From positions 1 through 35,186 of IMG/VR virus record IMGVR_UViG_3300034072_002232: 35,186 nt of DNA, one strand, 5' to 3'. Each line of letters opens with the position of its first letter. The first letter of the stretch is position 1. Origin of the DNA: a virus. The notes under the pieces are model-generated. The model was given only the letters and a program-made list of their open reading frames with translations, searched no databases and was not told the DNA's origin. Shown piece after piece: positions 2,793-35,186 of this stretch. The position numbers and the translations under genes were made by a program.

Positions 2793-3322
2793 CCACACAC
2801 GCACATCTTGCCTTTAAAAGACTCCAAGCTATCAATAAGAGCGTTATGCCGAATGGCATTTTCGTTACATATCTGAAAATTCTCACTAGCATTTATTAAG
2901 ACTTGTTCGACGGTTGCAATTGCTGTTTGATTGCCGGGCTGAGTGGCACTAGTTTGCTCGGGCGCTGCAGTAGACCCTGATCGATGTTGATCGGCACCTG
3001 CAATGGCGCGGTTCCACAACTGCAAAGACTCAGCGTCAGCAAAACATACACGGTTGTCATTTTTATCATTAATACGCTCCCTAATGGTCCTATAAATAAT
3101 TTTGCTTTGAGCTTCGACTTTCTGCGCATTCTCAATAATCTTACCTTGATTAGCATCAATGCTCTGGCGCGTTTTTTCATCCTTGGTAATGCTACGGGTT
3201 AGGCCTGCGTCTTTTTTCCAGCCGTGTACGGTCCATCCAGCCAAAAAAAAGACCACACAAAGTGTGGCCAGCGCTATTAGTTTGGTTTGCCCGGAATAAG
3301 GCGGAAAAAGTTTATCGAGCAT
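2786..3322 (-). CDS. Rz-like inner-membrane spanin
   Basis: Encodes 178 residues from ATG 3322; GGGG lies about seven bases upstream, and the possible GTG four codons earlier is less likely. A single transmembrane helix at about residues 14-34 (N-in, C-out) is followed by a long charged helical periplasmic part, the layout of i-spanins. With Rz1 it would fuse inner and outer membranes in the last step of lysis. The C-terminal half is less typical, with a Ser/Thr/Gln-rich linker and four cysteines near the end, including CVC just before the C-terminus. It overlaps the lysozyme stop by 11 bases, suggesting translational coupling, and contains the whole Rz1 gene in another frame. Confidence 0.75.
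   Translation of the reverse strand: MLDKLFPPYSGQTKLIALATLCVVFFLAGWTVHGWKKDAGLTRSITKDEKTRQSIDANQGKIIENAQKVEAQSKIIYRTIRERINDKNDNRVCFADAESLQLWNRAIAGADQHRSGSTAAPEQTSATQPGNQTAIATVEQVLINASENFQICNENAIRHNALIDSLESFKGKMCVCGY
2896..3069 (-). CDS. Rz1-like outer-membrane spanin lipoprotein, nested in Rz
   Basis: Encodes 57 residues wholly within Rz in another reading frame. AGGGAG lies eight bases before the ATG at 3069, which decides the start. A short charged start, a hydrophobic signal segment (VYVLLTLSL) and a lipobox LCSC (or LSLC) predict a lipoprotein. The mature part is short and contains five prolines (APL, VPI, RPS, VPL, SPA), a hallmark of Rz1 o-spanins. Nested Rz/Rz1 pairs are known from lambda and many phages. 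The long open frame starting at 3180 has an unlikely N-terminus for an o-spanin. Confidence 0.75.
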   Translation of the reverse strand: MIKMTTVYVLLTLSLCSCGTAPLQVPINIDQGLLQRPSKLVPLSPAIKQQLQPSNKS

Positions 3323-27176: not shown

Positions 27177-27383
27177 CTACTCCTTCAACTTGTAAAACTT
27201 GCAATTGGGGCCAACGTTTGGCACCCGCTTATGAAAACTAATCGCCTTGTCGTTACTACACCACCAACGGCTCAATGAACTCACACAATGATCACAGGCC
27301 CGGCAACCCAATTGATGAAGCTGATCATTGGCTACAATCTCAGCAGGATCCTGCCGATAATATCTAGCAGGTAAATCAGCCAT
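27177..27383 (-). CDS. Cys-rich small protein, possible zinc binder
   Basis: Encodes 68 residues starting MADLPARYYRQDPAEI; GGGAG six bases before the ATG at 27383 favours this start over 27416, and it overlaps the upstream stop by eight bases. Cysteines in C-R-A-C-D-H-C, WWC and NCKFY suggest a small zinc-binding module. Similar Cys-rich proteins of 60-80 residues are common in phage replication regions and have no assigned role. Its stop lies three bases before the Q-like gene. Confidence 0.6.
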   Translation of the reverse strand: MADLPARYYRQDPAEIVANDQLHQLGCRACDHCVSSLSRWWCSNDKAISFHKRVPNVGPNCKFYKLKE

Positions 27384-27801
27384 GCCCAGCTCCCGCGTTA
27401 AACTTGTAATTGCCATCACTTCTAGGCTCCAGAAACACAAAACCCTTAGCACGAAGATGCTCAATGACTAAATCATCACTCTCGCTATATTCGCCAGCCA
27501 TAAACACACGGCATCCAAAGAAATCTACCCCGTACAATTCCGCCAACTTCGGCGCGGTCAAATAGTGGCGCTCACCATCCAAACGGCTAACCACATACCC
27601 AGGGAAAAGAACGTACTTGCATTTGCTTCGCTTCAACGGATATGGGCTAACCGCCACCAACGGCTCAATACTGGCCGAAGTACGTGTGCTGAACTCCTGA
27701 TCACCCTCAGTCGCTTGGATCAACTTAACCCCATTGCCGAAAACACCCCTTAATTCGTCGGCCAACTTCACAGCTTCCGGAAAATCCTCTCTAAACCCCA
27801 T
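27376..27801 (-). CDS. Conserved-looking phage protein, unknown function
   Basis: Encodes 141 residues starting MGFREDFPEAVKLA; GGAGG lies nine bases before the ATG at 27801, so the longer frame from 27843 is unlikely. A central HYLTAPKLAELYGVDFFGCRVF segment and a C-terminal DDLVIEHLRAKGFVFLEPR segment look like a small mixed alpha/beta fold. No catalytic motif is seen. It is the first gene downstream of the iteron region, whose nearest arm ends 32 bases before its start, so its expression may be coupled to that region. Confidence 0.6.
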   Translation of the reverse strand: MGFREDFPEAVKLADELRGVFGNGVKLIQATEGDQEFSTRTSASIEPLVAVSPYPLKRSKCKYVLFPGYVVSRLDGERHYLTAPKLAELYGVDFFGCRVFMAGEYSESDDLVIEHLRAKGFVFLEPRSDGNYKFNAGAGHG

Positions 27802-27832
27802 AACAAAAAACCTCCGAATGGCTAGAAATAAA

Positions 27833-28002
27833 GCTCCGTCCAATTAGTCCAATACGTCCAATCAAAAAATATAAATTACACACACATGCGCGCGCGTATG
27901 TGTGTGGGCGGGTGAGTTGCCTGTGTGGACTGACTGGACTAATTGGACGGAGCCAGTGTTTATGCGGACTTTCAAAAATCCACCTATTGGACGCAACTGG
28001 AC
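27833..28002. repeat. TGGAC iteron array with 19-bp inverted repeat: candidate replication origin
   Basis: A perfect 19-bp inverted repeat (GCTCCGTCCAATTAGTCCA at 27833-27851; its complement at 27935-27953) lies around a spacer of 83 bases. Each side holds three copies of GTCCA/TGGAC with 9-base period: 27838, 27847, 27856 in one orientation and 27926, 27935, 27944 in the other. Two further TGGAC copies start at 27988 and 27998. Iterons beside a TOPRIM primase-helicase gene, in the only sizeable non-coding gap of the replication region, suggest the phage origin. An operator for the adjacent operon is the main alternative. Confidence 0.65.
27877..27906. other. 30-bp alternating pyrimidine-purine tract, Z-DNA or cruciform prone
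   Basis: Thirty consecutive bases alternate pyrimidine and purine: a CA run, a central GC run of about nine bases, then a TG run. The tract is nearly self-complementary and sits at the symmetry centre of the inverted iteron array. Just left of it (27864-27877) is an A/T-rich stretch. Such sequences melt, extrude or adopt Z-DNA under supercoiling, which fits an unwinding element. Structure is inferred, not shown. Confidence 0.6.
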
Positions 28003-28064
28003 GAAACGCTTGCTTTTCGGGCGCTGAATCACCCATCTCTGCTTGCGCTTGCTGCTGCGATAAT

Positions 28065-30596
28065 TTAGAAGGGGATCTCATCTTCTTCAGTCCAATCACC
28101 CTTCAGTTCAATTTTTACAGCTGGCGCTTTGCCAGCTACCTGCACCCAATCATCAGGACGGTTGTAATACCTAATCCGCTTTTTGGATGGATTCTCTTTG
28201 TCGTCTGGCCGGGATTGCTTCCAGCCGAGCCTGTTCATGATCTTGCCAACCTGTATCGCATTGGCCTGAGTTTGCTTACCAGGCTCAATCTTCAGGCAGT
28301 CACTCAATACACTGGCAACACTTACACGGGCGAAAGTCTCAGACCATAACCACTCTGATATTCTTGATTCCCATGGATCATCGTATTCACGCAGGTTCTG
28401 CTCTGGCGCAAACAATCCAGTCTGTTCCTCTGCAGTTGGGTGATACCTGTCACCCCGCTCAAAACACATAAGCGCCTCAGCAAACAACTGCTCCCTGGCA
28501 GCGGCCAACCCTTCCAGGTCAATATCGCTAACCTCTTCAGTTTTAAGCGGCCAGAAGCGGCTGTTACCAGTCTTGTCTCGTAGATACGTGTCCTCATTGG
28601 TCGTACCAAAGAAAACCGTTCTACGCGGCCAGTCACGCGCATACTTATCAAATGGAGAGCGATATCGATCGATAGCGCTGGAGAGATACGCCTTAATAAT
28701 CGGCGCTTCCTGGTTATTGAAAGAACCCAGCTCCGCAATCTCATGCAGCCAGGTGCCCTGGATGTTAATAAAACCATCCTTGCCGCGCAGGTCTAGCGGC
28801 GAATCGCTAAACCACTTACCCGCCAGAATCCGCGCAATGCTCGATTTACCACGCAGCTGAACACCCTCAAACACTGGCATGGCGCGCATAATGCAACCAG
28901 GCTTAAACGCTCGCGCAATCATCGATATCAAAAAATACCGACCGACTAGCGTAGTGTATTTCCCAGCACGAATGCCGCAATACTTAGTCAGCCATTCATC
29001 AATGCGCGATGTGCCGTCCCATTCAAGACTACTCAGCCAGTCAGTCAGCGGATCAAATGCATTCCGTGAAGCCATCAGCTTCACTGCCTGGTTAATCGTG
29101 TCTACGCTTCGCACCGTGAAGCCATGATAGGTTGATAACCACAGGCTCAGCTCCAGGTTGTCGCCATCGCCCCATTCAACTATTGATTCGTCATGGTGCA
29201 TATCCCATGGCGCTGCGCGTCGCTTGATGATCCTTAGCGAAAACTTATCAAAAGCCACCACGCCAGCCAGGTCAGGGTGATAATTCAGAAAAGCAAACAC
29301 ATTCTCGCGGGTGTCAGCGATCTTGCCTTTTTCATATCGAAGATGATCAGACCAATCCCCCGATCCCTCTGCGTTAGCGGGTTTAGCGGTAGATTTGCTT
29401 TTTGACTTCTTCGGCAAAGAAGCGGACGAAGATGCAGACGCAGAAGTGTCTGTTTGCGTGTTTTCAGGAGCTGGCGTGTAGTCGCGTGTCTTTAATATGA
29501 AGTCTCGCAGGCGCTCTAATTCCCAGCCTTCGGCAATCGCGTCAGCAATATCCCATCCACTCTCCACAGAACCAGGGGCAGGCAAATCAACGATACGGAA
29601 TTTAGTTTCCGGATCCAGCTCGATAAGCTTTTCTTTAATAGCCAGCATGGCCTTAACGCCTGGCTGCTCAATTTCTGGCAATAGCGGCTTACTATCAGGA
29701 TCAACACCCTGCTCCACCTCTTTTTTGCTGGTAGGCTCTCTTTGCCCATCACAATCTGGCCAGGCAATAATATTGCGACCGGCTAACGGCGAAAAATCAA
29801 CCTTATCAATCGCCCCAGTACCACCAGACCAGGTCACAATCGCGCACTTTGTGAGTAGCTTCAAAGGCGCATCTGCACACTTTTCACCCTCGACCAAAAG
29901 CACCCAAGCTTCAGGATTGGCAGCAAGCCTGTCCAGGCCATAAAGCGGCCTTTCGCCCGCCTTCCATTGCATCCAGCGCCATTCAGCTTTGCCTGTTTTC
30001 CGACTTTTTGCCCATACCAGCGGCAAAGTCTCTTTGCCACCATCCGAGGTGACAAATCTATAAACAAACCCGAGCCGCTCTCCCTTCGGGCCTTTGTAGG
30101 GATAGACGGTTTGAGGTTTACCACGCTTAATATGCGCGACTGGAGGCGCTTCTGCATTTGCTGGCGCCGCAAACATCGGCTCCCACTCAGGAGGCTCTTT
30201 TGGCTTAGCTTCTTTGATTGCTGCAGGGTCTACAATTTGAGCTTTACGCTCTCTTTGTGTGCCAGAATCACGACGGCAACCTTCTGGCAAAATGAATCCA
30301 ATCTGGTCAGCCACTTCCATAGCGGCTTCTGGCATTTGTATGCCTTCGAGGTAAGCATAAAGTGCAATCAGATCTACAAACGGCTCACCGGCACCAAAAT
30401 CAGAACCATGCCCATTAATCAGATTTATGCTGAGTGATGGCTTTTTATCTGAACGCAACGGGTTGCTCACCAGATATTCTTGCTTTGCACTGCCTGTATA
30501 TTTACCGCCTGGCAGCCATCGTTCCAAGAGCGTTTCAGCACACCTTAATGCTTGTGCAGCAATTTCTTTATACGGGATGGGGGTGAGTTTCGCCAC
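28065..30596 (-). CDS. Replicative primase-helicase: TOPRIM plus VirE/VapE-like ATPase
   Basis: Encodes 843 residues from GTG 30596, coupled to the cII-like stop (TAGTG). The N-terminal domain (about 15-105) looks like a primase DNA-binding domain (NPLRSDKKPSLSI, GEPFVDLIALYAYLEG) but lacks the usual zinc-ligand cysteines. TOPRIM: VEGEK 235-239 and DCD 281-283. A Ser/Lys-rich linker at 383-412 separates this from an ATPase domain with a P-loop FEGVQLRGKSS (576-586), Walker B HEIAEL (618-623) and the FFGTTNED motif (662-669), as in VirE/VapE-type helicases. The P4 alpha-type combination suggests origin recognition, unwinding and priming in one chain, next to the iteron array. Confidence 0.9.
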   Translation of the reverse strand: MAKLTPIPYKEIAAQALRCAETLLERWLPGGKYTGSAKQEYLVSNPLRSDKKPSLSINLINGHGSDFGAGEPFVDLIALYAYLEGIQMPEAAMEVADQIGFILPEGCRRDSGTQRERKAQIVDPAAIKEAKPKEPPEWEPMFAAPANAEAPPVAHIKRGKPQTVYPYKGPKGERLGFVYRFVTSDGGKETLPLVWAKSRKTGKAEWRWMQWKAGERPLYGLDRLAANPEAWVLLVEGEKCADAPLKLLTKCAIVTWSGGTGAIDKVDFSPLAGRNIIAWPDCDGQREPTSKKEVEQGVDPDSKPLLPEIEQPGVKAMLAIKEKLIELDPETKFRIVDLPAPGSVESGWDIADAIAEGWELERLRDFILKTRDYTPAPENTQTDTSASASSSASLPKKSKSKSTAKPANAEGSGDWSDHLRYEKGKIADTRENVFAFLNYHPDLAGVVAFDKFSLRIIKRRAAPWDMHHDESIVEWGDGDNLELSLWLSTYHGFTVRSVDTINQAVKLMASRNAFDPLTDWLSSLEWDGTSRIDEWLTKYCGIRAGKYTTLVGRYFLISMIARAFKPGCIMRAMPVFEGVQLRGKSSIARILAGKWFSDSPLDLRGKDGFINIQGTWLHEIAELGSFNNQEAPIIKAYLSSAIDRYRSPFDKYARDWPRRTVFFGTTNEDTYLRDKTGNSRFWPLKTEEVSDIDLEGLAAAREQLFAEALMCFERGDRYHPTAEEQTGLFAPEQNLREYDDPWESRISEWLWSETFARVSVASVLSDCLKIEPGKQTQANAIQVGKIMNRLGWKQSRPDDKENPSKKRIRYYNRPDDWVQVAGKAPAVKIELKGDWTEEDEIPF

Positions 30597-31153: not shown

Positions 31154-31243
31154 GAATGGAGGATATGTATGCAAACAAATCAAACTTCGATCTGCTTACG
31201 CGGCATGCTTCGAGTGCACAGGCCATGCCAGACCTGTTTCGGG

Positions 31244-31316
31244 TTGCGCGGGCTGGAGTCGAACCAGCGACAGGTGGATTATGAGTCCACTGCTCTGCCA
31301 TCTGAGCTACCGCGCC
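31244..31316 (-). tRNA. tRNA with CAU anticodon (Met or Ile2)
   Basis: A full 73-nt cloverleaf: acceptor GGCGCGG/CCGCGCA, D-stem GCTC/GAGC, anticodon stem GTGGA/TCCAC with loop CTCATAA, five-base variable loop, T-stem GCTGG/CCAGC with loop TTCGACT, and discriminator A. The CCA end is not encoded (ACCC follows). Pair 1-72 is a G-A mismatch, leaving six acceptor pairs. The D-stem is of elongator type, so it is not an initiator. CAU could mean Met, or Ile2 after lysidine modification; the T-arm resembles E. coli Ile2. It starts six bases after the cro stop, so it is probably cut from the cro transcript. Confidence 0.88.
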
Positions 31317-31322
31317 AAACAT

Positions 31323-34338: not shown

Positions 34339-34455
34339 ATGCAACGCCACGAACAGCGCCAGGATAACTACGACATCAACCAATTCAACCGCAAGGGCTA
34401 TATCTGCCTGATATCGATTGCCCTCGCCCTGCTTATATCAGGAGCATTTCAATGA
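34339..34455 (+). CDS. 38-residue membrane peptide before PP-loop gene
   Basis: Starts MQRHEQRQDNYDINQFNRKG and ends LLISGAFQ. A good GAGGGG lies about six bases before the ATG, and the stop overlaps the next ATG by four bases (ATGA), so it is well supported as a translated gene. Polar N-terminus and one hydrophobic helix (about 21-37). Function unknown. Confidence 0.6.
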   Translation: MQRHEQRQDNYDINQFNRKGYICLISIALALLISGAFQ

Positions 34456-35186
34456 AAGAGCATATTGAGGCTGGCGCATTGTTCGTGGCCAATCACTCTG
34501 GTGGTAAGGATAGTCAGTGTCTGCTTATCAAGCTACTAGAGGTCGTGCCGCGCAAACAGATTGTCGTTATCCATGCATCACTTGGTGAAGTTGAATGGCC
34601 TGGAGCGCTTGAGCTCGCCCGCGATCAAGCAGCAGATGCTGAGCTGCCTTTCATTGTCGCCAAAGCATCCAAAACCATGTTTGAGATGGTCGAGCGGAGA
34701 TTTGAATCGCGTCCGGAGGTTCCTAGTTGGCCGTCTGCGTCAACACGGCAATGCACCAGCGACCTTAAGCGTGGCCCGATCCAACGCGAGGTCAGGGCTT
34801 ATGCTAAGGCAAATGGCTTCGACACGATTATCAATTGCCTTGGTTTGAGAGCTGCCGAATCTCCAGGCCGCTCGAAGCGTGAGCCATTCAGCCGCATGGG
34901 CATCAGCAACTCTGTGCTGACCTGGTACGAGTGGCTTCCTATCCATGGCCTGTCAAAAGATGAGGTTTTCACCACCATCCGCGATTCAGGGCAAGAACCT
35001 CACTATGCCTACGGACTAGGCAATGATCGCTTGAGCTGTGTTTTCTGCCTCTATGGAAGTAAAGGTGATATCCAAAACGGCGGCAGGCACCTACCTAGAC
35101 TTCTTGAGAAGTATGACGCGATTGAAAAACGCACCGGATACACCATGCATATAAGCAGAATTCCGATTATGGAGATTGCCGCATGA
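34452..35186 (+). CDS. PP-loop ATPase of PAPS reductase / DndC-like family
   Basis: Encodes 244 residues, complete to TGA at the window edge. PP-loop SGGKDS at 16-21 binds ATP; HASLGEVEWP (41-50) corresponds to the strand after the loop. TRQCTSDLKRGP (98-109), LRAAES (132-137) and C196-x2-C199 in RLSCVFCLYGS complete the pattern. The ECGLH motif of true PAPS reductases is absent, so sulphate assimilation is unlikely. Its CxxC is reminiscent of iron-sulphur-bearing DndC-like proteins, which suggests adenylation-type or sulphur-transfer chemistry on nucleic acid. No other dnd gene is seen. Common as an orphan in phage early operons. Confidence 0.85.
   Translation: MKEHIEAGALFVANHSGGKDSQCLLIKLLEVVPRKQIVVIHASLGEVEWPGALELARDQAADAELPFIVAKASKTMFEMVERRFESRPEVPSWPSASTRQCTSDLKRGPIQREVRAYAKANGFDTIINCLGLRAAESPGRSKREPFSRMGISNSVLTWYEWLPIHGLSKDEVFTTIRDSGQEPHYAYGLGNDRLSCVFCLYGSKGDIQNGGRHLPRLLEKYDAIEKRTGYTMHISRIPIMEIAA

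Follow-up and report, generated by a model that had tools for sequence, protein, structure and literature searches.

In SaPIs, two sets of iterons flank an AT-rich melting region. The alpha protein of phage P4, a fused primase-helicase initiator, reads short iterons, and the P4 origin consists of two separated sites, ori and crr. At the SV40 T-antigen and papillomavirus E1 origins, short sites that face each other load two ring helicases. As described in PMC7581432, the C-terminal domain of the SaPI Rep helicases recognizes iteron origins that immediately follow the helicase gene, the AAGTG iterons of the putative SCCmec Cch2 origin are bound by the isolated C-terminal domain, and the DNA-binding domain of T-antigen and E1 is N-terminal.

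We analyzed a 35-kb IMG/VR virus record (35,186 nt; this whole stretch is referred to below as the window) that carries an iteron array at positions 27833 to 28002. Judging from its predicted genes, which include those for a CII-like activator, a terminase, a portal, a major head protein, and a tail sheath, the source appears to be a temperate phage with a contractile tail. The immunity region includes a good tRNA-Met (CAT) gene (31241 to 31317), situated between the CII-like and Cro/YdaS-like genes. One end of the contig carries a D12-class adenine methyltransferase gene (1331 to 2125), and the opposite end carries a gene for a PAPS-reductase-like protein (34452 to 35186). We consider it highly probable, with both replication and binding being inferred, that the array is the replication origin of this phage, where VapE C-terminal domains sit on facing iterons and two helicases are loaded around the core.

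The array was originally predicted to lie in noncoding DNA behind the primase-helicase gene, and it does occupy a 263-bp noncoding gap 3' of this VapE-type gene, between the primase stop (28065, minus strand) and the ATG of the next gene (27801) (Table 1). Overlapping ORFs at 27900 to 28349 (plus strand) and 27791 to 28099 (minus strand) had no Pfam match. Each element described in the original prediction was located: a perfect 19-bp inverted repeat (27833 to 27851 and 27935 to 27953), three TGGAC copies per arm at 9-base spacing and facing opposite ways, two additional copies outside the arms, and a central alternating tract of 30 nt. When the arms are widened to 28 nt, 25 of the 28 positions pair; all three mismatches sit in the spacer between iterons (ATAC versus GTCA), and none falls in the GTCCA cores. 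The predicted symmetry holds for the arms, which are mirror images, but not for the outer copies. These are 10 bp apart and occur only on the side of the primase, and the array as a whole is therefore not fully symmetrical.

Compared with dinucleotide shuffles, the arms had a z score of 6.9 (for the alternating run, see Table 1), and the runner-up strictly alternating run in the window is 13 nt long. TGGAC or GTCCA occurs 50 times in the 35 kb; 8 of these copies are within the array, and every other 200 bp contains at most 3. All four of the window's TGGAC pairs with 9-bp spacing fall in the array, where 0.07 would be expected. No match to the DnaA box TTWTNCACA, expected at a DnaA-dependent iteron plasmid origin, was found within 4 kb of the array. 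The GC skew, which had been suggested as a check, was computed and has no switch at the array, but it is uninformative there because most genes run one way, masking any switch.

Table 1. Positions of the array elements and the adjoining genes in the window
Feature	Positions	Strand	Details
Distal iteron array	27833–27860	-	GTCCA at 27838, 27847, 27856; 9-bp spacing
Primase-side iteron array and arm end	27926–27953	+	TGGAC at 27926, 27935, 27944
Two outer TGGAC copies, primase side	27988–28002	+	Starts at 27988 and 27998
Alternating pyrimidine-purine core, strict, 30 nt	27877–27906		z of 8.1 versus shuffles
AT-rich stretch, about 18 bp, between core and distal array	27861–27880		From sequence; possible melting start
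Next gene, phrog_7644, unknown function	27376–27801	-	ATG at 27801 behind GGAGG; far limit of the noncoding region
VapE-type (PF05272) primase-helicase, 843 aa, proposed initiator	28065–30596	-	Pfam, PHROGs, AlphaFold model
Segment coding for C-terminal winged-helix-like domain (residues about 741 to 812)	28161–28376	-	Proposed iteron reader
SSB-like acidic tip EEDEIPF, primase C terminus	28068–28088	-	PF ending common among relatives

The protein encoded next to the array matched Pfam PF05272 with an E value of 1.4e-64 (218 bits; cutoff, 25) and was assigned by PHROGs as a DNA helicase/primase. In its Walker A motif, GK[ST], G583 and K584 are invariant and S585 is nearly so. An AlphaFold model of residues 404 to 843 (pLDDT, 90.6) matched PriRep1, solved on double-stranded DNA (7pds), with a Z of 34.6 over 400 residues (model residues 10 to 420), a match that takes in both the helicase and the C-terminal domain. 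The SaPI5 primase-helicase (7ola/7om0) matched with a Z of about 13, and the helicase domain resembles that of E1 (2v9p; Z, 11.2). The C-terminal domain of the model has the winged-helix order of helix-strand-helix-helix-strand-strand; Foldseek with this domain alone returned merely weak winged-helix matches. A C-terminal PF was present in 31 of 71 nonredundant VapE primases versus 6 of 1280 other long ORFs, and 28 of the 31 have at least two acidic residues just ahead of it. Through this SSB-like tip, the primase may attract those replication proteins of the host that interact with the SSB tail.

A single-query search with the window's primase found no close relatives in viral contigs and one in genome contigs, and a nucleotide search of phages with the window gave no match. 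Since the single query yielded almost nothing, an alignment was required. We gathered relatives with an alignment of six VapE primases, which returned many divergent matches, and a second alignment added more. The resulting set of 62 protein-led relatives, nonredundant at 80% identity, was compared with 1112 control windows. Of the 62 relatives, 32 had facing arms (at least 17/20) no more than 500 bp 3' of the primase, versus 16 of the 1112 controls, and alternating runs of at least 20 nt were found 3' of the primase in 23 relatives versus 10 controls. In the relatives, the alternating tract is usually between the facing arms, and this holds for almost every strong case. The iterons themselves differ in sequence (GTCCAACC, CCTAACCT, GTCCCACT, TTCCATACC, GGTCACCCC, TTCTACACG, TGTTTCCG, and TGTAGCCGA) and, in some relatives, are unequal in number on the two sides. 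Aligning relatives had been proposed as a check, and it bore out the design, facing iterons 3' of the primase, but not the exact TGGAC repeats. That the array is an origin read by the neighboring primase-helicase gains support from this anatomy, which recurs 3' of VapE in dozens of divergent phages and in some plasmids; origin activity is strongly supported by such comparison, with no experiment behind it.

The layout was also seen in Enterococcus phiFL4A and Corynebacterium Lederberg, as well as in the DNA 3' of VapE in APSE-2 (2560 to 2707), where facing GTAACAACC iterons flank a TATATATA tract. The putative origin annotated in the APSE-2 record lies elsewhere, upstream of a Cro-like gene. 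Pseudomonas-type phages (L007, L056, L381, L062, L072, and L088) have the same module one small gene farther downstream, and arrays in a betaproteobacterial clade (L030 to L050) are looser, with wider spacing. L055 to L088 had at first appeared to be a negative group, but in most of the members inspected the module is present, displaced by one gene. No facing iterons were found 3' of VapE in Bacteroides phage EMB1. The noncoding DNA 3' of its VapE gene has a 100-bp direct repeat (86%; 2827 to 2926 and 3183 to 3282), which is perhaps a different origin design. In a betaproteobacterial MAG (L008; 5853 to 8275), a frameshift near the 3' end splits the VapE primase frame.

The association was also recovered without the use of any protein. 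Viral contigs were scanned for facing GTCCA/TGGAC pairs, which gave at least 119 loci. Among the matches listed, 25 of 119 facing pairs were located 3' of a VapE primase and at most 500 bp away, versus 2 of 111 for the outward-facing control. Nearly all of the VapE-associated loci were 112 to 141 bp past the primase stop. Approximately 90 of the 119 loci listed had no VapE primase, which is in line with the background count of the control.

Across 40 phages, iteron similarity followed similarity of the C-terminal domain after correction for the helicase domain (partial r, 0.36; permutation P = 0.0005), and in the opposite comparison, with the C-terminal domain held constant, the helicase domain gave only a weak value (0.08; P = 0.08). 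We propose, without binding data, that the C-terminal domain of the primase is the putative iteron reader; the iterons' tracking of this domain supports the original suggestion that the primase-helicase reads the array. The correlation may partly be physical linkage, since the coding end of the C-terminal domain adjoins the array.

Facing iterons 3' of VapE are also present in small VapE plasmids. The Gluconobacter plasmid pGO128 (4.3 kb) encodes VapE as its sole recognizable helicase, with resolvase and HTH proteins adjoining, and has 3' of VapE an AT-rich core enclosed by facing GTGCTG/AGCAC repeats. Klebsiella, Roseomonas, and Komagataeibacter plasmids have facing iterons at the same position. 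The plasmid evidence is strong but not conclusive, since an HTH_36 protein encoded by pGO128 could also have a role in its replication.

The window's core is an alternating CA/CG tract, rich in Z-prone steps. Cores in mid- and high-GC phages are mostly CG/CA steps, those in APSE-2 and Enterococcus phiFL4A are TATA-type alternations, and in some plasmids the core is merely AT-rich. The core had also been predicted to be cruciform-prone, and this found no support: the relatives' tracts are no more self-complementary than shuffles that preserve purines and pyrimidines (mean z, -0.09; standard error, 0.22), and a cruciform or hairpin was accordingly rejected as the purpose of the core. Because the cores form hairpins no more than the shuffles do, the alternation itself seems to be kept, not a cruciform or terminator. 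A fixed order of alternating tract and then AT-rich stretch was frequent but not significant (P = 0.18) and was rejected. The array could be an origin as proposed whose core consists of weakly stacked, easily melted pyrimidine-purine steps, without left-handed DNA, and we see this as evenly balanced. The alternating TATATATA-type cores of the low-GC relatives APSE-2 and phiFL4A and the AT-rich plasmid cores suit melting over Z-DNA, whereas the CG/CA tracts of mid- and high-GC phages resist melting more than the neighboring AT-rich stretches. Any role of Z-DNA is inferred. It is possible, though rather doubtful, that in VapE-type phages across bacterial groups the iterons diverge with the C-terminal domain and the alternating core is held because a B-to-Z transition driven by supercoiling, or pyrimidine-purine unwinding, lets two facing helicases load.

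These results bear on two explanations that do not involve an origin. The inverted repeat could be a long RNA hairpin that ends the primase transcript, as a terminator or 3' stabilizer; folding of the transcript reaches -99.4 kcal/mol (z, -6.95), and terminator-like matches on the strand of the primase fall within the core. However, the spaced direct repeats in the arms would be superfluous for a hairpin, the mismatches are in spacers and not in iterons, and the lack of excess hairpin formation in the relatives' cores and their sometimes unequal iteron numbers do not fit either. Rfam matched nothing in the window except the tRNA, and we regard the RNA explanation as very improbable. We give equally little credence to the array being a partition or incompatibility site (parS-like) or the operator of a regulator. 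Iteron arrays do serve partition and copy control too, and CII- and Cro-like regulators are encoded near the array, but no partition genes were recognized among the window proteins scanned and no sigma-70-like promoter was found in 27500 to 28300. Moreover, the array accompanies VapE despite differing neighbor genes, and its iterons vary with the VapE C-terminal domain.

For the preferred reading, a replication origin, we infer the following steps. The VapE-type primase-helicase from the adjoining gene would bind the facing TGGAC iterons via its C-terminal winged-helix domain, and the two oppositely oriented arrays would set two ring helicases face to face around the core. The core, composed of the pyrimidine-purine tract and the short AT-rich stretch, would absorb supercoiling or open easily. 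The rings could then pass onto the single strands and depart in both directions, with the same protein making primers and the host polymerase copying. Bidirectional helicase loading is plausible and, like the opening of the core, is inferred.

The comparison provides a rule for finding origins in a large group of temperate phages and in VapE plasmids, namely, to look 3' of VapE for facing iterons of 8 to 12 bp around an alternating tract. It also supplies many natural initiator-iteron pairs for deciphering the code of iteron recognition, along with a tractable case for testing whether Z-prone DNA can act as an origin opening element. The comparison further supports the view that proteins named VapE ("virulence-associated protein E") initiate replication.

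In the open literature, we did not find phage iterons described together with Z-DNA, alternating tracts, or VapE, and an earlier description is not excluded; neither the alternating core nor its occurrence across autonomous phages appears to have been described in the searchable literature. The original prediction knew of no described phage origin of this design. This stands for the alternating core, which is apparently undescribed, but SaPI origins likewise place short iterons immediately 3' of the gene for the initiator (PMC7581432), and the design is therefore not wholly unprecedented. A SaPI-type origin has two facing iteron sets around a core, has its iterons adjoining the 3' end of the initiator gene, and has an AT-rich core. 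The array meets the first of these, it and its relatives meet the second, and the array does not meet the third; the plasmid relatives do have AT-rich cores. The array further differs from SaPI origins in its long alternating pyrimidine-purine core (mostly CG/CA in Proteobacterial phages), in its different iterons, and in belonging to a whole autonomous phage and not to a satellite. The putative SCCmec Cch2 origin shares with the array 5-nt iterons 3' of a gene of the primase-helicase family, but it has three direct iterons only, inverted repeats are dispensable for binding, and an alternating core is not reported in the portion of the source available (PMC7581432). Unlike the P4 origin, the array is one compact symmetrical site, and the SV40 and papillomavirus systems are unrelated to that of this phage beyond the helicase core. 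The best reading is that this is an origin of the SaPI kind, marked by iterons that face each other 3' of the gene for an initiator helicase, with a core that is an alternating tract and not AT-rich DNA alone.
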